NCBI GenBank assembly: GCA_019247515.1
Contig: JAFAOS010000191.1
Span: 1 to 64,000, forward strand
Direction of reading: 5' to 3'
DNA: 64,000 bases
Source: Chloroflexota bacterium
GTDB taxonomy: Bacteria > Chloroflexota > UBA6077 > CF-72
The notes below the pieces were generated by a model. The model was not told the origin of the DNA. It saw nothing but the letters and a program-made list of their open reading frames with translations, and made no database searches. The position numbers and the translations under genes are program-made. Numbering within the stretch: position 1 is the stretch's first letter; every line of letters begins with the position of its first letter. Shown here in pieces: positions 6,288 to 44,857 of the stretch.

Positions 6288-7935
6288 GCTGGCCCGAGAC
6301 ACGCTTCAGCAGGCGCAAGGGATCGGGCGGCGGCGCGTCGCCCGACCACGCCACGTACTGGTCCGGACGGACGAGGACCAGACGCGCGGCGTAGGCGGTC
6401 CGCTCGCCCGCGAACGTGTCGCGCACGATTTTCAGCGGCAGCGGCAGACCGCTGGACGTGGCGGCGTCTTCAAGTGGACTGCAGTCGGCATCCAGCGCCA
6501 GCAGCGTAAAGCCGTCGCCTAACTCTTCATAGACGTTGCGGTGGTTAGAAAGCGCGCGCGGCGCCAGGTGGTGGCCGGCCGCCGCCCTGAACGACAGCTC
6601 GCCGTGAATGCTGCACGACGCCCCGGCTGGCCCCATGACCACCGACGAGCCTGCGTAGTGGGGGTCGTACGTGTGGGCCGCCGAGGCCTCGCTGCGCGCC
6701 AGCTCGTCCCACGCACGCCGAAATTCACCCACGTCGCGCTCCGGACTGTAGCGCTCCAGAAACTCGCGATCGCGCTCGATGGCGCCGGCGATCATCGCCT
6801 CGCCGGTTTCGACGAAGATCGGTCGCCGCTCTTGTCCGTAGGAGTCCAGGAGCGCCTCGCCGCCCCAACCCTGGAGGCGCGCCGCCAGTTTCCAGCCGAG
6901 ATTTCTGGCGTCCTCCAGGCCGGTATTCAGACCGAATCCGCCATATGGCGGATGCTGGTGACATGCGTCGCCGGCAATAAACATGCGCGCCTTCCGGTAC
7001 ACGGTGGCAACCATGATGCGCAGGTCCCAGAAACCGACATAGTCCAGCTGGGCCTGAAAGTCGAATCCGGCCGCCTCGTGCAGGAGCCGGAGAAAATCGT
7101 AATTGTCCTGCCGCGTGTCAGCCGGCACCGGCGCGTGGAAGAAAAAACTCTCGCCGACGTCGATGCGACCGAAAAACTGCCAGTAGCCCGCGAGCTCCGG
7201 CTTCATCACTCGGTAGGTGGTGGCGTCCGGAAACCGTTTGAGGAACTCGTGGAGTTCCGTCGACCGGAACACGACGAATACCATGCGCTGGTCGAAGTTT
7301 CGACCACCACGGTCGACGCCCATGCGTTCTCGCACCAGTGAGCGGCCACCATCGCAGCCAACCACGTACCGTGCTTCGAGGCTCCGCGCGCCGCTGTGCG
7401 GGTCCTGGTTCACTTGCTGCTGCGCGTCGGCCGACCAGCTGTAAAACGCGTCCGCGTCCTCGTCGACGCGCGAGATGGCCAGCGTTGCGTGGTCCGCGTC
7501 CTGCGACACGCTGTCCACGTTCCATCCGAACAGCGCGGTGACCGACGGCAGCGCGCTCAGCCGCTGGCGCAGCACGGCCTCCGTGCAGTATTGCGGCAGG
7601 CGCTCGCCACGCTCGTAGAAATAGTCCTGGACGCGCGGACCGCGGCCGCCCCACTGCATCGTTTGAAAATACGGGCTCTTCAGGTCGCGGTAGATCGTGA
7701 CGCCACCGGATGGATAGCCTGGCGGCATGACGCGCGCGGCGCGCAGCTCGTCGACGCAGCGCCAGAAGTAAAAGTGCTCCAGCGTCCGATTGGTCAGGTT
7801 CTGGCCCTTGGGGATGCGCTGCGGCGCGCGGTGGCGCTCGACGAGCACGCTGCGCACACCGCGCTGACCCAGCTCGACCGCCAGCGCCACGCCAACTGGC
7901 CCGCCGCCGACGATGGCGACGTCGTACTCGGACAC
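6277..7935 (-). CDS. FAD-dependent aromatic hydroxylase (PheA/TfdB/MhpA type)
   Basis: A 552-residue class A flavoprotein monooxygenase. It starts at a GTG with the dinucleotide-binding motif GGGPVGVALAVELG, has a central GD motif (VVGCDGGRS) and the FAD ribityl motif GDACHQHPPYGGFGLNTG near residue 325, followed by the NLGWKLA helix seen in phenol and 3-hydroxyphenylpropionate hydroxylases. The C-terminal thioredoxin-like part is short. It would hydroxylate a phenolic ring using NAD(P)H. It is divergent from the luciferase-like gene (48 nt gap) and convergent with the LigJ-like gene. A weak -10 (TACGCT, 7944-7949 on the minus strand) precedes it. Confidence 0.85.
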   Translation of the reverse strand: MSEYDVAIVGGGPVGVALAVELGQRGVRSVLVERHRAPQRIPKGQNLTNRTLEHFYFWRCVDELRAARVMPPGYPSGGVTIYRDLKSPYFQTMQWGGRGPRVQDYFYERGERLPQYCTEAVLRQRLSALPSVTALFGWNVDSVSQDADHATLAISRVDEDADAFYSWSADAQQQVNQDPHSGARSLEARYVVGCDGGRSLVRERMGVDRGGRNFDQRMVFVVFRSTELHEFLKRFPDATTYRVMKPELAGYWQFFGRIDVGESFFFHAPVPADTRQDNYDFLRLLHEAAGFDFQAQLDYVGFWDLRIMVATVYRKARMFIAGDACHQHPPYGGFGLNTGLEDARNLGWKLAARLQGWGGEALLDSYGQERRPIFVETGEAMIAGAIERDREFLERYSPERDVGEFRRAWDELARSEASAAHTYDPHYAGSSVVMGPAGASCSIHGELSFRAAAGHHLAPRALSNHRNVYEELGDGFTLLALDADCSPLEDAATSSGLPLPLKIVRDTFAGERTAYAARLVLVRPDQYVAWSGDAPPPDPLRLLKRVSGQLRA

Positions 7936-7971
7936 CTGCGTTCAGCGTATGCCATTCGGCGGCGCGCGACC

Positions 7972-7977
7972 TAACAT
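7972..7977 (+). promoter_or_regulatory. Candidate -10 element (TAACAT), leaderless spacing
   Basis: TAACAT ends 6 nt before the ATG at 7984. Transcription about 7 nt below the hexamer would begin at the start codon itself, so the mRNA would be leaderless. There is no Shine-Dalgarno. Confidence 0.4.
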
Positions 7978-7983
7978 GAAGAC

Positions 7984-9090
7984 ATGGGTTCGCTGGACTT
8001 CGCATTCTGGGACGTCATTCCACATACGAGCACGGGCACCGCCATTGCCGACGATTACGATGCCCACATCCGACTGGCGCAGCGGCTGGAAGGGCTCGGC
8101 TGGCATTCGTACTTCGTGATCGAGCACCAGAACGCGCCGCAGGGCATCAGCGCGCCCAGCGTGTACCTGACCGCCGTCGCGCGCGAGACGAGCCGTCTGC
8201 GCCTCGGGGCGATGATGTGGCAGCTCCCCTTCTACAACCCCATGCGCCTGGCCCAGGAAGTGGCCATGCTCGACCAGCTTTCGCGCGGGCGCGTGGAATT
8301 CGGGACGGGCATCGGCGTGCACGAGCACGAATTCATCCGCTGGGGAGTCGACTACTACCAGCGCGCCGCGATCTCGGAAGAGGTCCTCCAGGTGGTGAAG
8401 ATGGCGTGGACCCAGCCCGAGGTGACCTTCCAGGGCAAGTATTTCCACTTCGACGAGGCCTTCCCGCATCCCAAACCATTTCAACAGCCGTATCCGCCGA
8501 TCTGGGCCGCCGTCCACAGCGACACGTCGGTCGAGTTTGCGGCGCGCAGCAACTACAACATCGCCAAGAACCTCGACACGGACGACGTGGTGGCCGGCAA
8601 GTTCGACCTGTTCCGCACGGTCTGGCACGCCAGCGGCCATGCTGGCACGCTGCCGCGCGTCTTCCTGATGCGTTCGGTCCATGTCGCGCCGACCGACGAA
8701 CAGGCGCACGCCGAGGCCCGCGAGTTCCTGGCCCCCGGTGGTCAACGCGTGGGTGGCGGACCCATCGCCCAGACCCGCGTCGGCTGGGGCTCGCACGCGC
8801 GGGGCATGGGCGCCGACAGCGAGCGCGCCGACAACAAAGCCCGCGGCCAGACGATGGCCCAGGCCCAGCGTGACTATGAGTTCAATATCGACCACGGCCT
8901 GGCCCTGGTGGGCAGCCCCGAAACGGTGATCCGCCAGCTACAGGCGGGTCAAGCGCGGATGGGCTACGACCTGTTTTGCACGAACCACCAGATCGGGCGC
9001 ATGCCCCGCGAACAGGTGGAGCGGTCGATCGAGCTATTCGGCACGGAGGTCATCCCCGCGTTCGCCGGCGCGCCAGTCGGGCCGCGTTAG
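7984..9090 (+). CDS. LLM-class (luciferase-like) flavin-dependent monooxygenase
   Basis: A 368-residue bacterial luciferase-like TIM-barrel protein. It shows the family pattern: a substrate-face segment YFVIEHQN near residue 47, the conserved LRLGAMMWQLPFYNPMRLAQE region around 75-95, LSRGRVEFGTGIG near 105, and a C-terminal LVGSPETVIRQL segment. These enzymes take reduced flavin from a separate reductase and oxidise substrates such as alkanals, sulfonates, chelators or heterocycles. The FMN reductase at 487 could be a partner (inference). The substrate is unknown. A second family member is at 50980-52095. Confidence 0.9.
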   Translation: MGSLDFAFWDVIPHTSTGTAIADDYDAHIRLAQRLEGLGWHSYFVIEHQNAPQGISAPSVYLTAVARETSRLRLGAMMWQLPFYNPMRLAQEVAMLDQLSRGRVEFGTGIGVHEHEFIRWGVDYYQRAAISEEVLQVVKMAWTQPEVTFQGKYFHFDEAFPHPKPFQQPYPPIWAAVHSDTSVEFAARSNYNIAKNLDTDDVVAGKFDLFRTVWHASGHAGTLPRVFLMRSVHVAPTDEQAHAEAREFLAPGGQRVGGGPIAQTRVGWGSHARGMGADSERADNKARGQTMAQAQRDYEFNIDHGLALVGSPETVIRQLQAGQARMGYDLFCTNHQIGRMPREQVERSIELFGTEVIPAFAGAPVGPR

Positions 9091-40904: not shown

Positions 40905-42119
40905 ATGGCGACGACCGACGCTCCGGTGTTCTCTGACCCGCGCTACCGTGCTGATCCTTACGGCGTGCTGGCTGAAGTGCGCCGCGAACGGCCGGCTTAC
41001 CTCACGCGGCTGCCCAGCGGCGAGCAGGTTTTCCTGGTCACCCGCTTCGCGGACGTCGAGGCGGGGCTGAAAGACGCGCGGCTGGTCAAAAACATCACCA
41101 ATGCCCGCGAGCGGCGACCCGGCATGCTCGCGCGTCTGGGATTCCTCAAAAACTTCGGTAACACCAACATGCTGCGGGCCGATCCACCCGAGCACACGCG
41201 CCTGCGCGCGCTGGCCCACCAGGCCTTTACACCCAGGCTCGTCAACCAGATGCACGACCACATTCAAACGCTGGCCGATCAGCTGATCGACGCTGTCGAG
41301 CCCGCTGGACGGATGGACCTGATCGCCGACTTCGCCCTGCCGCTGCCCATCACCGTGATCTGCGAATTGCTCGGCGTGCCGCGGCAGGACGAGCAGAAGT
41401 TCCGACGCTGGTCAGGCGCGCTGATCGAATCCGGGGCGCTCAGCAGCGAGTCGGTGCCGCTAGTGCCCCAGCTGCTGCTGATGGTCCGCTATGTCCGCAG
41501 GCTGGTGCGTCGCCGACGCGCGCATCCGGCCAGCGGCGAGGACCTGGTGGGTCAGCTCCTCGCCGCGCGTGAAGGCGGACAACAGCTGTCCGAACGTGAG
41601 CTGTTGTCGACCATCATCTTGCTGCTCATCGCCGGGCACGAGACGACCGTCAACCTGATCGGCAATGGCACGCTGGCGCTGCTGCTCAATCCCGACCAGC
41701 TCCAGCGGCTGCGGCAGGACCCAACGCTGGTCAAGCCGGCGGTCGAAGAGCTGCTGCGTTACGTCAATCCAGCCCAGTTGGTGAATCGCTACGCCCGCGA
41801 GGACCTCGACATCGGCGGCGTGCCGATTCGGCGCGGCAGCCACCTGCTGCTGATCCTCGCCGCTGCCAATCACGATCCTGACTTCCTCGAGCGACCAGAC
41901 CAGTTGGACGTCTCGCGCACGGTCAGGCAGCACGTCGCCTTCGGCCAGGGCATCCATTATTGCCTGGGAGCGCCGCTGGCCCGGCTCGAAGGCGAGATCG
42001 CCTTCGCCACGCTGTTGCGGCGGCTGCCCAACGTGCGGCTTGGCGTTCCCGTCGAGGAGCTCGAGTGGCGGTCCGGCATCGAGCTGCGGGGATTACGCAG
42101 CCTGCCGGTTGTGTTCTAA
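40905..42119 (+). CDS. Cytochrome P450
   Basis: A 404-residue bacterial soluble P450. The I-helix motif is IAGHETT (about residue 245), the K-helix ExxR is EELLRY, and the heme ligand is C353 in the loop FGQGIHYCLG. The N-terminus (DPYGVLAEVRRERPAY) and size resemble the CYP107-like class. It inserts one oxygen atom into a substrate such as a terpenoid, steroid, fatty acid or xenobiotic. No ferredoxin or ferredoxin reductase gene adjoins it, so electrons must come from elsewhere. Transcription is probably leaderless. Confidence 0.93.
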   Translation: MATTDAPVFSDPRYRADPYGVLAEVRRERPAYLTRLPSGEQVFLVTRFADVEAGLKDARLVKNITNARERRPGMLARLGFLKNFGNTNMLRADPPEHTRLRALAHQAFTPRLVNQMHDHIQTLADQLIDAVEPAGRMDLIADFALPLPITVICELLGVPRQDEQKFRRWSGALIESGALSSESVPLVPQLLLMVRYVRRLVRRRRAHPASGEDLVGQLLAAREGGQQLSERELLSTIILLLIAGHETTVNLIGNGTLALLLNPDQLQRLRQDPTLVKPAVEELLRYVNPAQLVNRYAREDLDIGGVPIRRGSHLLLILAAANHDPDFLERPDQLDVSRTVRQHVAFGQGIHYCLGAPLARLEGEIAFATLLRRLPNVRLGVPVEELEWRSGIELRGLRSLPVVF

Positions 42120-42135
42120 ACCTTGCTATCCGTGC

Positions 42136-42141
42136 TACACT
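42136..42141 (+). promoter_or_regulatory. Candidate extended -10 promoter (TGCTACACT) of the metal transport unit
   Basis: TG-C-TACACT is an extended -10 (TACACT 42136-42141), 17 bp after the P450 stop. Transcription would start near 42148 and give a leader of about 190 nt, far longer than others here. Confidence 0.45.
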
Positions 42142-42147
42142 GATTGC

Positions 42148-42339
42148 GGCGCGGTGCGCCACAGCATGTCTTCAGAACCTCCAAGTAGTCAAACCACACA
42201 CGCGTTTTCTGATGCGAACCTGCCCCTGGGGGGCTTCGCCTAGTCGTCGCATTCTCTCGCTGAGTCGCTGACGGTCAGGCGGGCGTCCCCGGCGTGGGTG
42301 CGCCCGTTCTTTTTCTCTATCGCACAGGGAGGCCGTCAA
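42148..42339 (+). promoter_or_regulatory. Structured 5' leader with terminator, candidate metal-sensing RNA switch
   Basis: This gene-free leader precedes the MgtE-N/Nramp unit. A hairpin forms from GCGAA (42214-42218) and TTCGC (42235-42239) with an inner GCCCC/GGGGC stem. ATGCGA (42212-42217) can instead pair with TCGCAT (42247-42252), so the two folds exclude each other. Downstream, CGGGCG (42280-42285) and CGCCCG (42301-42306) form a stem followed by TTCTTTTTCT, an intrinsic-terminator shape, just before the AGGGAGG ribosome-binding site. I could not match it to the M-box or yybP-ykoY consensus as I know them. Function is inferred from layout and downstream genes. Confidence 0.5.
42280..42316 (+). 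terminator. Putative regulated intrinsic terminator in the leader
   Basis: A 6-bp GC stem (CGGGCG/CGCCCG) with a 15-nt loop that can partly pair internally is followed by a T-rich run. It lies between promoter and coding sequence, so it would act as an attenuator rather than a true gene end. Confidence 0.55.
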
Positions 42340-43590
42340 ATGCAGTACGTCAGCGAACTTCTCGGAGCGCCCGTCCGTGACCCGGACGGGAACGTCGTCG
42401 CGCGAGTATCCGATGTGTTGGTACCCGCCGACGCAGACTATCCGGCCGTCGACGCTGTCGCCCTCAAGCCTCCCAAGGGCGAGACGCGTATGGTTCCCTG
42501 GTCCGCGCTGCAGGTGCAGGAAAACGGCGGCGTCTCGCTGTCCACCGCCCTGGCCCAGACGCCGACGTTCGATCCGCCGCCGCACGAGCTCTCGCTGGCT
42601 CGGCAGGTGATGGACCACCAGATCATCGACGTCAATGGCGTGCGCGTCGTGCGCGTCAATGACCTGCAGCTGGCGCCCACCGAGGGCGCGTACCGGCTGA
42701 TCGGCGTCGACATCTCGACCGCCGGCCTGCTGCGCCGGCTGGGCGCCGCGCGGGTCCTCAGCGCGCTCGGCGTCAAGCTGACTCCCACCGCGATCGCCTG
42801 GGAAGCCATCGAGCCGGTCGAGTCCGGCGAAACAGGCGTCAAGCTCAAGGTCTCGCACGAGGATCTCGCCAGGCTGCACCCGTCGGACATCGCCGAGATC
42901 ATCTCGCAGCTCGACCAGCACCACGTGCAGGAAGTGCTCGAGACGCTCGACGACGAGGCGGCCGCCGACACCATTGGCGAGGTCAGTCCCGACCTGCAGG
43001 TGCAATTGCTCGAGGGCATGGAGCCCGAGCGCGCGGCGGACATCCTCGAGGAGATGGACCCCGACGATGCCGCCGACATCCTCGGCGACATGGAGCCCGA
43101 CAAGGCGCACGACCTGCTCAGTCGCATGGAGCCCGACGAGGCCGAGGACGTGCGCGAGCTGCTCAGCTATGACGAGGAGACCGCCGGCGGGCTGATGACC
43201 AACGAGGTCGTCACGGTGCCCGCCACGGCCACCGCCGCGCAGGCGATGCGCCTGGTGCGCACCCAGGCGGCGGAAATGGAAAACGTGTATTCGGTCTACG
43301 TCGTCGACGAAAACGAGGTGCTGCTCGGCGAGCTCTCCTTGCGCGAGCTGATCGTGGCCGACCCACAGGTGCCGATTGGCCGCGTCATGCACCGCGAGCT
43401 GATCCGCGGCCGGCTGGACGATACCGACCAGGAAGTCGCGCGGCTGATCGCCAAGTACAACTTGCTGGCGCTACCAATCGTCGACGACGTGGGCCACCTG
43501 CGTGGCATCGTGACCGTCGACGACGCGATGGACGTGATCCTGCCCGACGATTGGAAGGCGCGCATTCCGCGCGTCTACGCGCATGGGTAA
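42340..43590 (+). CDS. Soluble PRC-barrel/MgtE-N/CBS protein, likely divalent-metal sensor
   Basis: A 416-residue protein with a good ribosome-binding site before the ATG at 42340. Residues 1-75 are a PRC-barrel (LLGAPVRDPDGNVVARVSDVLV), with a second barrel-like part to about 170. Residues 185-285 are the MgtE N-terminal superhelix, rich in acidic residues (EEMDPDDAADILGDMEPDKA). Two CBS domains complete it (about 290-410; MTNEVVTVPATATAAQAMR). In MgtE these cytosolic domains bind Mg and gate the channel; here the MgtE membrane domain is absent. The next gene is an Nramp-like transporter, so this is probably its separate regulatory subunit (inference). Confidence 0.85.
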   Translation: MQYVSELLGAPVRDPDGNVVARVSDVLVPADADYPAVDAVALKPPKGETRMVPWSALQVQENGGVSLSTALAQTPTFDPPPHELSLARQVMDHQIIDVNGVRVVRVNDLQLAPTEGAYRLIGVDISTAGLLRRLGAARVLSALGVKLTPTAIAWEAIEPVESGETGVKLKVSHEDLARLHPSDIAEIISQLDQHHVQEVLETLDDEAAADTIGEVSPDLQVQLLEGMEPERAADILEEMDPDDAADILGDMEPDKAHDLLSRMEPDEAEDVRELLSYDEETAGGLMTNEVVTVPATATAAQAMRLVRTQAAEMENVYSVYVVDENEVLLGELSLRELIVADPQVPIGRVMHRELIRGRLDDTDQEVARLIAKYNLLALPIVDDVGHLRGIVTVDDAMDVILPDDWKARIPRVYAHG

Positions 43591-43609
43591 CCCTCGGCAG
43601 TAAGACTGC

Positions 43610-44857
43610 ATGCGCCTGCCCCGGTCGCGAGGTCTCCGCGCGGTCTGGGGGTTTCTGGCCGTGCTCGGACCTGGCGTCATCACCGGGGCCGCTGGCGACG
43701 ACGCTGGCGGAGTCGCGACATACGCGTCGGTGGGCGCCCAGTACGGCTACACGCTGCTGTGGATCATGGGCCCGATCACGGTGGCGCTGATCATCGTCCA
43801 GCTCCAGGTCGCCCGCATGGCAGTCGTGACGGGCAAGGGCTTCGCCGAGCTGATTCGTGAAGAGTTCGGCGTGCGGTGGACGGCCGTCGCGATGGTCGTG
43901 TTGATCGTCGCCAACGGCACGGTGACAATCGCCGAATTCGCGGGCATTGCCGCGGCGGGTGAGCTGTTCGGCATTCCCAGACCGATCAGCGTGCCGCTCA
44001 TGGCGGTTGTCGTCTGGCTGATCGTGGTGCGAGCGTCGTACACGGTCGCGGAAAAGATCTTCATTCTCTTGTCGACGGCGCTGCTCACGTACGTGGGCGC
44101 GGCGATCCTGGCGCAGCCGGACTGGAAGGAAGTCGGGGTCGCGCTGGTGACGCCGTCGTTCCAGTTCGACCCGGGCTACCTGGCGACCTTCGTCGCGCTG
44201 GTCGGCACCACGATCACGCCCTACATGCTGTTCTATCTCCAGTCGTCGCTGACCGATAAAGGCGTCGACGTGACCGACTACCCCCGGGAGCGAACCGACG
44301 TCATCGTCGGCTCGCTGCTCACCACCATCATCGCCGTGTTCATCGTCGTTTCGACCGCCGCGACGCTGCACGTCAACGGCGTGGTCATCGACACCGCCGA
44401 AGACGCCGCTCGCGCCCTCGAGCCGCTGGCCGGACCCTACGCGTTCCTCCTGTTTGGCCTCGGCCTGTTTGGCGCGAGCATGCTGGCAGCCAGCGTCCTG
44501 CCCCTCAGTACGGCCTACGCGGTGTGCGGCGCCTTCGGCTGGGAGCGCGGCGTGTCGCGATCGTGGTCCGAAGCGCCGATCTTCAACACGCTGTATACGG
44601 CGCTGATCGCCATTGGCGCCGCCTTTGTCCTGATCCCGGGCCTGCCGCTGATTCAGGTCATCGTCGCGACCCAGTTCCTCAATGGCGTGCTGCTGCCCGT
44701 GGTGCTCATCTTCGTTCTCAAGCTGGTCAACGACCACGAGCTGATGGGCGACTACACCAACAATCGTCTGTTCAACGTGCTGTCGTACGCGACCACGGGC
44801 GTGCTCGTGCTGCTGACCGTGGCGCTGCTGGCGTTTTCCGCGTTCGGAATCGGCTAG
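43610..44857 (+). CDS. Nramp/NRMT-family divalent metal transporter, divergent metal site
   Basis: A 415-residue membrane protein with about 11 helices of the SLC11/Nramp fold (GPGVITGAAGDDAGG in helix 1, TTITPYMLFYLQSSLTDKGV in helix 6). Canonical Mn/Fe Nramps have DPGN in helix 1 and a metal-binding Met in helix 6. Here helix 1 reads GDDAGG and helix 6 reads TTITPY with no such Met. Loss of that Met is a feature of Nramp-related Mg transporters, so Mg or another hard divalent ion is a reasonable guess. The gene begins 19 bp after the MgtE-N/CBS gene. The stop overlaps the convergent VWA gene by 4 nt. Confidence 0.85.
   Translation: MRLPRSRGLRAVWGFLAVLGPGVITGAAGDDAGGVATYASVGAQYGYTLLWIMGPITVALIIVQLQVARMAVVTGKGFAELIREEFGVRWTAVAMVVLIVANGTVTIAEFAGIAAAGELFGIPRPISVPLMAVVVWLIVVRASYTVAEKIFILLSTALLTYVGAAILAQPDWKEVGVALVTPSFQFDPGYLATFVALVGTTITPYMLFYLQSSLTDKGVDVTDYPRERTDVIVGSLLTTIIAVFIVVSTAATLHVNGVVIDTAEDAARALEPLAGPYAFLLFGLGLFGASMLAASVLPLSTAYAVCGAFGWERGVSRSWSEAPIFNTLYTALIAIGAAFVLIPGLPLIQVIVATQFLNGVLLPVVLIFVLKLVNDHELMGDYTNNRLFNVLSYATTGVLVLLTVALLAFSAFGIG

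Follow-up and report, generated by a model that had tools for sequence, protein, structure and literature searches.

A candidate leader-peptide attenuator upstream of an MgtE_N and NRMT-type Nramp gene pair in a Chloroflexota bacterium

Results

The leader precedes genes for a soluble MgtE_N protein and an NRMT-type transporter

We analyzed a 64-kb stretch of Chloroflexota DNA (the window), in which a P450 gene ends at 42119 and a gene whose product combines PRC, MgtE_N and two CBS domains starts with an ATG at 42340; the leader occupies the interval 42120-42339. An Nramp gene follows on the same strand, and Pfam searches bore out the gene pair as the initial annotation had described it. The features below were compared with L005, the same-genus genome that is the nearest relative and whose MgtE_N-type protein is 84% identical to that of the window.

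42136..42141, + strand: predicted −10 element TACACT, conserved with L005; predicted transcription start at ~42148
42148..42160, + strand: 5′ hairpin GGCGC/GCGCC directly before the uORF start, also in L005, where the loop differs
42166..42243, + strand: upstream ORF (uORF) of 25 codons plus TAG, MSSEPPSSQTTHAFSDANLPLGGFA and stop; equally long in L005, without indels
42175..42189, + strand: E-P-P-S-S codons (GAA CCT CCA AGT AGT), corresponding by alignment to the P-S motif in related uORFs
42226..42292, + strand: predicted antiterminator hairpin of 27 pairs, −33.9 kcal/mol; same hairpin in L005
42278..42318, + strand: predicted intrinsic terminator, stem 42278-42308 and then a U-tract, −21.7 kcal/mol; also in L005, where the stem differs
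42327..42332, + strand: Shine-Dalgarno (SD) sequence GGGAGG of the main gene, read from the sequence, ~7 nt before ATG 42340
42340..43590, + strand: soluble PRC/MgtE_N/CBS protein, 416 aa (Pfam MgtE_N 1.4e-28, CBS 6.6e-16, PRC 2.9e-5)
43610..44857, + strand: Nramp-related transporter, NRMT type, 415 aa (Pfam Nramp 2e-93)

Among PDB entries, the window Nramp protein matched Eggerthella lenta EleNRMT best (7qia, E = 1.2e-119), the other Nramps reaching 7e-25 or weaker. In its TM1, D-A-G-G (DDAGG) replaces D-P-G-N; the TM6 metal site contains no Met, with GTTITP where MntH has M-P-H. The closeness to EleNRMT, the DAGG in TM1 and the lack of Met at the TM6 site place the protein in the NRMT type by sequence. 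Where the transition-metal-selecting Met would sit, the window Nramp has Thr, in contrast to the Ala of the reported NRMTs. NRMTs are a proven class of Mg2+ transporters (PMC4072509; PMC8806188), of which the EleNRMT structure has been solved (Ramanadane et al., 2022, PMC8806188), and NrmT transporters encoded beside an MgtE-like fragment are controlled by the M-box (Shin et al., 2014, PMC4072509). The window shares the gene pair and the Nramp subfamily with these reports, but the M-box is the sole leader described there (PMC4072509; PMC8806188). Magnesium is likeliest the metal of the transport pair, judging from the closeness of the Nramp protein to EleNRMT and from the M-boxes on homologous operons, but it is not certain because a relative without an M-box, that of A. 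capsulatum, probably moves manganese according to Shin et al. (PMC4072509).

Two more MgtE_N genes, each adjoining an Nramp gene, are located on contigs C364 and C561 of the same genome. The encoded MgtE_N proteins are ~32% identical to that of the window, and the genome contains six Nramp genes in total.

The leader matches no Rfam family

An Rfam covariance search of the 64 kb yielded no gathering-score match. At E ≤ 10, the region 41900-42450 gave a single match, a minus-strand stretch inside the P450 gene, and the leader gave none, including with the covariance models of the M-box (RF00380) and the Mn2+ riboswitch yybP-ykoY. The initial annotation was right in assigning the leader to no known class and to neither of these two. 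The M-box was not found in the window's own genome either.

At homologous genes elsewhere, the leader contains the M-box Mg2+ riboswitch or else a short uORF. The M-box is present on seven homologous loci, including L160 from the window's phylum, and M-box and uORF leaders were interspersed in a tree of 79 proteins, with nine changes of leader type. Mainly because the two leader types exchange on homologous operons, we infer that the window leader also senses Mg2+.

If the RNA itself bound Mg2+, Mn2+ or another ion and the uORF were incidental, the leader would be a riboswitch, as could be expected from its terminator and antiterminator (below), its metal-transport context and the M-box on homologous operons. 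However, Rfam gave no match, and no elaborate aptamer fold is conserved ahead of the switch. The leader as a whole folds no better than shuffled sequences (z = −0.23), the blocks that are conserved correspond to the two uORF ends and the switch, and the conserved element is plainly coding in other lineages. We consider this explanation very unlikely; the sequence comparisons suggest that the leader is most likely a translated uORF switch, not a metal-binding RNA. The earlier proposal of a regulatory leader before a metal-transport pair thus holds, but not its proposal that the RNA senses the metal through short stems, as the orthologous leaders conserve a short uORF instead.

The end of a short uORF overlaps alternative terminator and antiterminator structures

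The blocks conserved between the window and L005 are the −10 box, the short hairpin, the ATG and next codons, the TAG region and the terminator. In L005 the promoter must lie here because the gene upstream is divergent, and a strict promoter scan of the leader region found nothing.

The 25-codon uORF at 42166-42243 had been absent from the initial annotation. Its counterpart in L005, MSSKPPSTQPNFTSFGAVPSRGGLA and stop, also spans 25 codons from ATG to TAG, the two peptides being conserved at their N- and C-terminal ends and diverged in the middle. The uORF of L006, from the same order (MDSDRPSDRFIQ...), can be aligned with that of the window without gaps. In these alignments the EPPSS segment of the window corresponds to MSSKPPST in L005 and MDSDRPSD in L006; comparable segments are EPGPS/ETGPS (L008, L043) and KPHS (Eggerthellaceae). 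EPPSS is a loose fit to a motif of acidic start and Pro-Ser, and does not match the strict pattern M[DE]..PS. No SD is visible before the uORF. A GTG at 42154 was rejected as an alternative start, since it is not kept in L005.

The terminator and U-tract that had been noted around 42280-42316 were confirmed, and the region contains two terminator-like sites where 0.2 are expected. The antiterminator at 42226-42292 has a z-score of −2.6, and 4 of 200 shuffled sequences folded as well. Its 5′ arm consists of the last five or six uORF codons and the stop, and its 3′ arm overlaps the 5′ arm of the terminator, so that the two structures are mutually exclusive; both alternatives are kept in L005. 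Mutually exclusive structures, as proposed in the initial annotation, are thus supported in the form of antiterminator versus terminator. The inverted repeats it had listed, ATGCGA/TCGCAT at 42212-42217 and 42247-42252 and GCGAA/TTCGC at 42214-42218 and 42235-42239, are where it placed them, but stems of five or six bases are unremarkable alone in 190 nt.

Folding of the leader up to the middle of the terminator gave a single long hairpin in both the window (42226-42292) and L005. When the stop region was masked, as by a ribosome, the terminator formed, whereas a free or early-stalled leader folded into the antiterminator in both species. Inner pairs of the antiterminator are replaced on both sides between the two (C-G to T-A). 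When the upstream segment was shuffled, the observed gain from the antiterminator was reached in 43 of 1000 cases for the window and 2 of 1000 for L005 (p ~0.04-0.06 and ≤0.002, respectively). The arrangement of the window was seen in these two genomes only; with L006 added, a three-way alignment diverged too far for the switch to be located.

The moderate p-value of the window, the comparison of just two genomes and the uORF without an SD would also fit a leader that is simply constitutive, with a partial terminator and a chance ORF as the uORF. Against this stand the equal uORF length without indels, the conserved ends and the antiterminator in L005, as well as uORFs with frame conservation before the same gene in other clades, and we regard a chance ORF as quite unlikely. 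As in leader-peptide attenuators, a conserved short ORF lies upstream and the exclusive antiterminator and terminator overlap its end.

In the nearest relative (L205; G002:C358, ~7640-8100), short GGAGTGATG-like repeats form an array after the MgtE_N gene, which is also followed by a convergent Nramp gene with only 55% identity to that of the window. The Nramp gene of L005 is convergent to the MgtE_N gene and not cotranscribed with it.

Ribosome position on the uORF may determine termination

We hold, with somewhat more belief than doubt, that the window leader is a transcription attenuator worked by the 25-codon leader peptide, with low cytoplasmic Mg2+ as the likeliest trigger, as for MgtL. 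We infer that the uORF is translated and that its complete translation turns the genes off: a ribosome at the stop codon (42241-42243) would sit on the antiterminator's 5′ arm, leaving the terminator (42278-42308) to form and the mgtE_N-Nramp genes off. A ribosome that stalls at or drops off the early P-P-S (codons 5-8) would leave this arm free, and the antiterminator would then capture the 5′ arm of the terminator and allow transcription to continue.

This logic resembles that of MgtL, the leader peptide of enterobacterial mgtA, for which complete translation means repression and loss of the ribosome early, at EPDP, means induction (PMC11282234), and that of MgtQ ahead of mgtB, which acts through an anti-SD (PMC8092293). 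In each case a short uORF precedes a Mg2+ transporter gene, with full translation as the off state and early ribosome loss as the on state, here as proposed. Early P and D/E residues are also shared: the acidic residues are Glu2/Asp4 in MgtL (EPDP motif) and Asp2/Glu5 in MgtQ (PMC11282234; PMC8092293), and many uORFs here read M[DE]x[DGP]PS. Unlike MgtL and MgtQ, the leaders here belong to MgtE_N/NRMT genes of other phyla, with no sequence homology shown, and rely not on Rho but on an intrinsic terminator or an anti-SD.

The acidic pair is a further difference. The only early acidic residue of the window uORF is E4 (MSSEPPSS), which is K4 in L005, where no early acidic residue is left. Two acidic residues and a Pro near the N-terminus, as in MgtL-type IRD peptides, are found in neither uORF but occur in other homologs, e.g. 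MDADPSGD and MDADGSKS. An acidic IRD peptide was rejected for the window genus because of K4 in L005. As the acidic residues of many homologs are absent in L005, the chemistry at the window uORF may be proline-based or otherwise different from that of MgtL and MgtQ.

The amino-acid attenuators trpL and the Corynebacterium ilvB uORF likewise combine a uORF with a choice between antiterminator and terminator, but the window uORF contains no series of codons for a regulatory amino acid, and its downstream genes concern metal transport. The M-box (ykoK, RF00380) governs the same MgtE-like and NrmT operon in other bacteria (PMC4072509) and is also a terminator-based off-switch; it is absent from the window leader and genome, where the conserved element is the uORF. 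A search of non-subscription literature found no report of such uORF leaders of MgtE_N/NRMT genes. From its sequence, the window leader is a credible, apparently undescribed leader-peptide attenuator.

Short uORFs recur upstream of homologous genes

We collected 186 homologous leaders from genome contigs and whole genomes, of which 162 were non-redundant. What such leaders conserve is a short uORF, and the window switch itself is kept in L005. An unsupervised search for N-terminal uORF motifs in the 162 leaders retrieved M[DE][ATN][GD]PS[ST] with a logL of 264.7, compared with 119-139 in eight shuffled sets. A Chloroflexota clade, family f32 with its neighbours, provides most of its support and is dominated by one uORF family, e.g. 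METGPSTPGATGAQSHDEVRPAL. In this main clade, a conserved C-terminal GGTCC element follows the start codon at a distance of 47, 53, 71 or 80 nt, each value being 2 modulo 3, and only L152 departs from this. As the frame is maintained although the lengths differ by 6-33 nt, this distance points to a coding element. RNAalifold on 19 main-clade leaders found conserved stems with almost no covariation.

Outside the main clade, M[DE]x[DE] uORFs were present in 13 of 142 leaders versus 2.9 (sd 1.5) in shuffled sequences. The weight matrix of the main clade did not recover uORFs there, with 4 versus 1.95 expected. We therefore claim a recurring type of uORF and not homology of all uORFs. The 36 uORF-bearing loci have an Nramp gene downstream on the same strand in 28 cases and convergent in one; it is absent within ~1.5 kb in five, and two loci are cut.

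The Ser after Pro is encoded by AGT in 22 of 24 main-clade uORFs (L043, L036, L050 and others), while AGT makes up 3.7% of the Ser codons in the adjacent genes and the third base of the Pro codon varies. This preference points to a codon- or RNA-level constraint. It would suit an attenuator that senses translation capacity (e.g. charged tRNA-Pro, tRNA-Ser(GCU) or EF-P activity at P-P-AGT) and not Mg2+ directly. The leader of mgtP, which responds to tRNA-Pro, is a precedent, and in the window genus P-P-S is conserved and the acidic residue is not. However, the genes concern Mg2+ uptake and are controlled by the M-box in relatives, and there are one or two Pro codons only, with a variable third base; we think that sensing of translation capacity is unlikely.

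The uORF is nearly invariant in Eggerthellaceae

The best-conserved member of this uORF kind is found in Eggerthellaceae (the family of L095; L212-L241), where 29 of 30 leaders encode MKVRKxKPHSx, 11 codons with the stop at codon 12. At the thirtieth locus, L228, no leader was assigned since the presumed upstream sequence reads as coding. The codons are TTG/GTG AAG GTT CGA AAA NNN AAR CCT CAC AGT NNN stop, in which positions 6 and 11 are variable and the stop is fixed, and the uORF has a AGGAAAGG-like SD. The arms of a hairpin after the uORF covary (CTTCGACT/AGTCGAAG, CTTTAACC/GGTTAAAG and CTTCCGGCT/AGCCGGAAG). An anti-SD, likewise after the uORF, matches the SD of its own gene over 7.4 bases on average, compared with 6.2 for the SDs of other leaders and 4.7 for shuffled sequences. 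An Rfam search of the Eggerthellaceae leaders returned no family.

The same logic in Chloroflexota and the near-invariant 11-codon version in Eggerthellaceae suggest that the ribosome-based Mg2+ sensing known from enterobacteria, here at another class of transporter, arose repeatedly or is old. Far more tentatively, and with more doubt than conviction, we propose that leader peptides ahead of MgtE_N/NRMT genes form one class across phyla, in Chloroflexota, Eggerthellaceae and single cases elsewhere. Its members would share a Pro-(x)-Ser(AGU) nascent-peptide or codon motif at which the ribosome pauses at low Mg2+, would use terminator/antiterminator or SD/anti-SD outputs interchangeably, and would replace the M-box. 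The structurally solved NRMT comes from Eggerthellaceae as well, and the uORF leaders make it directly testable how NRMTs lacking an M-box are regulated.

Terminator-arm partners vary among the other terminator-bearing leaders, and a uniform antiterminator at the uORF stop was not found in them. In L018, L144, L148 and L154, CCACCTT in the 5′ arm of the terminator could pair with the AAGGAGGTGG-type SD of the uORF itself (seen in L018 and L148), so that termination at these four loci may depend on whether the uORF start is occupied.
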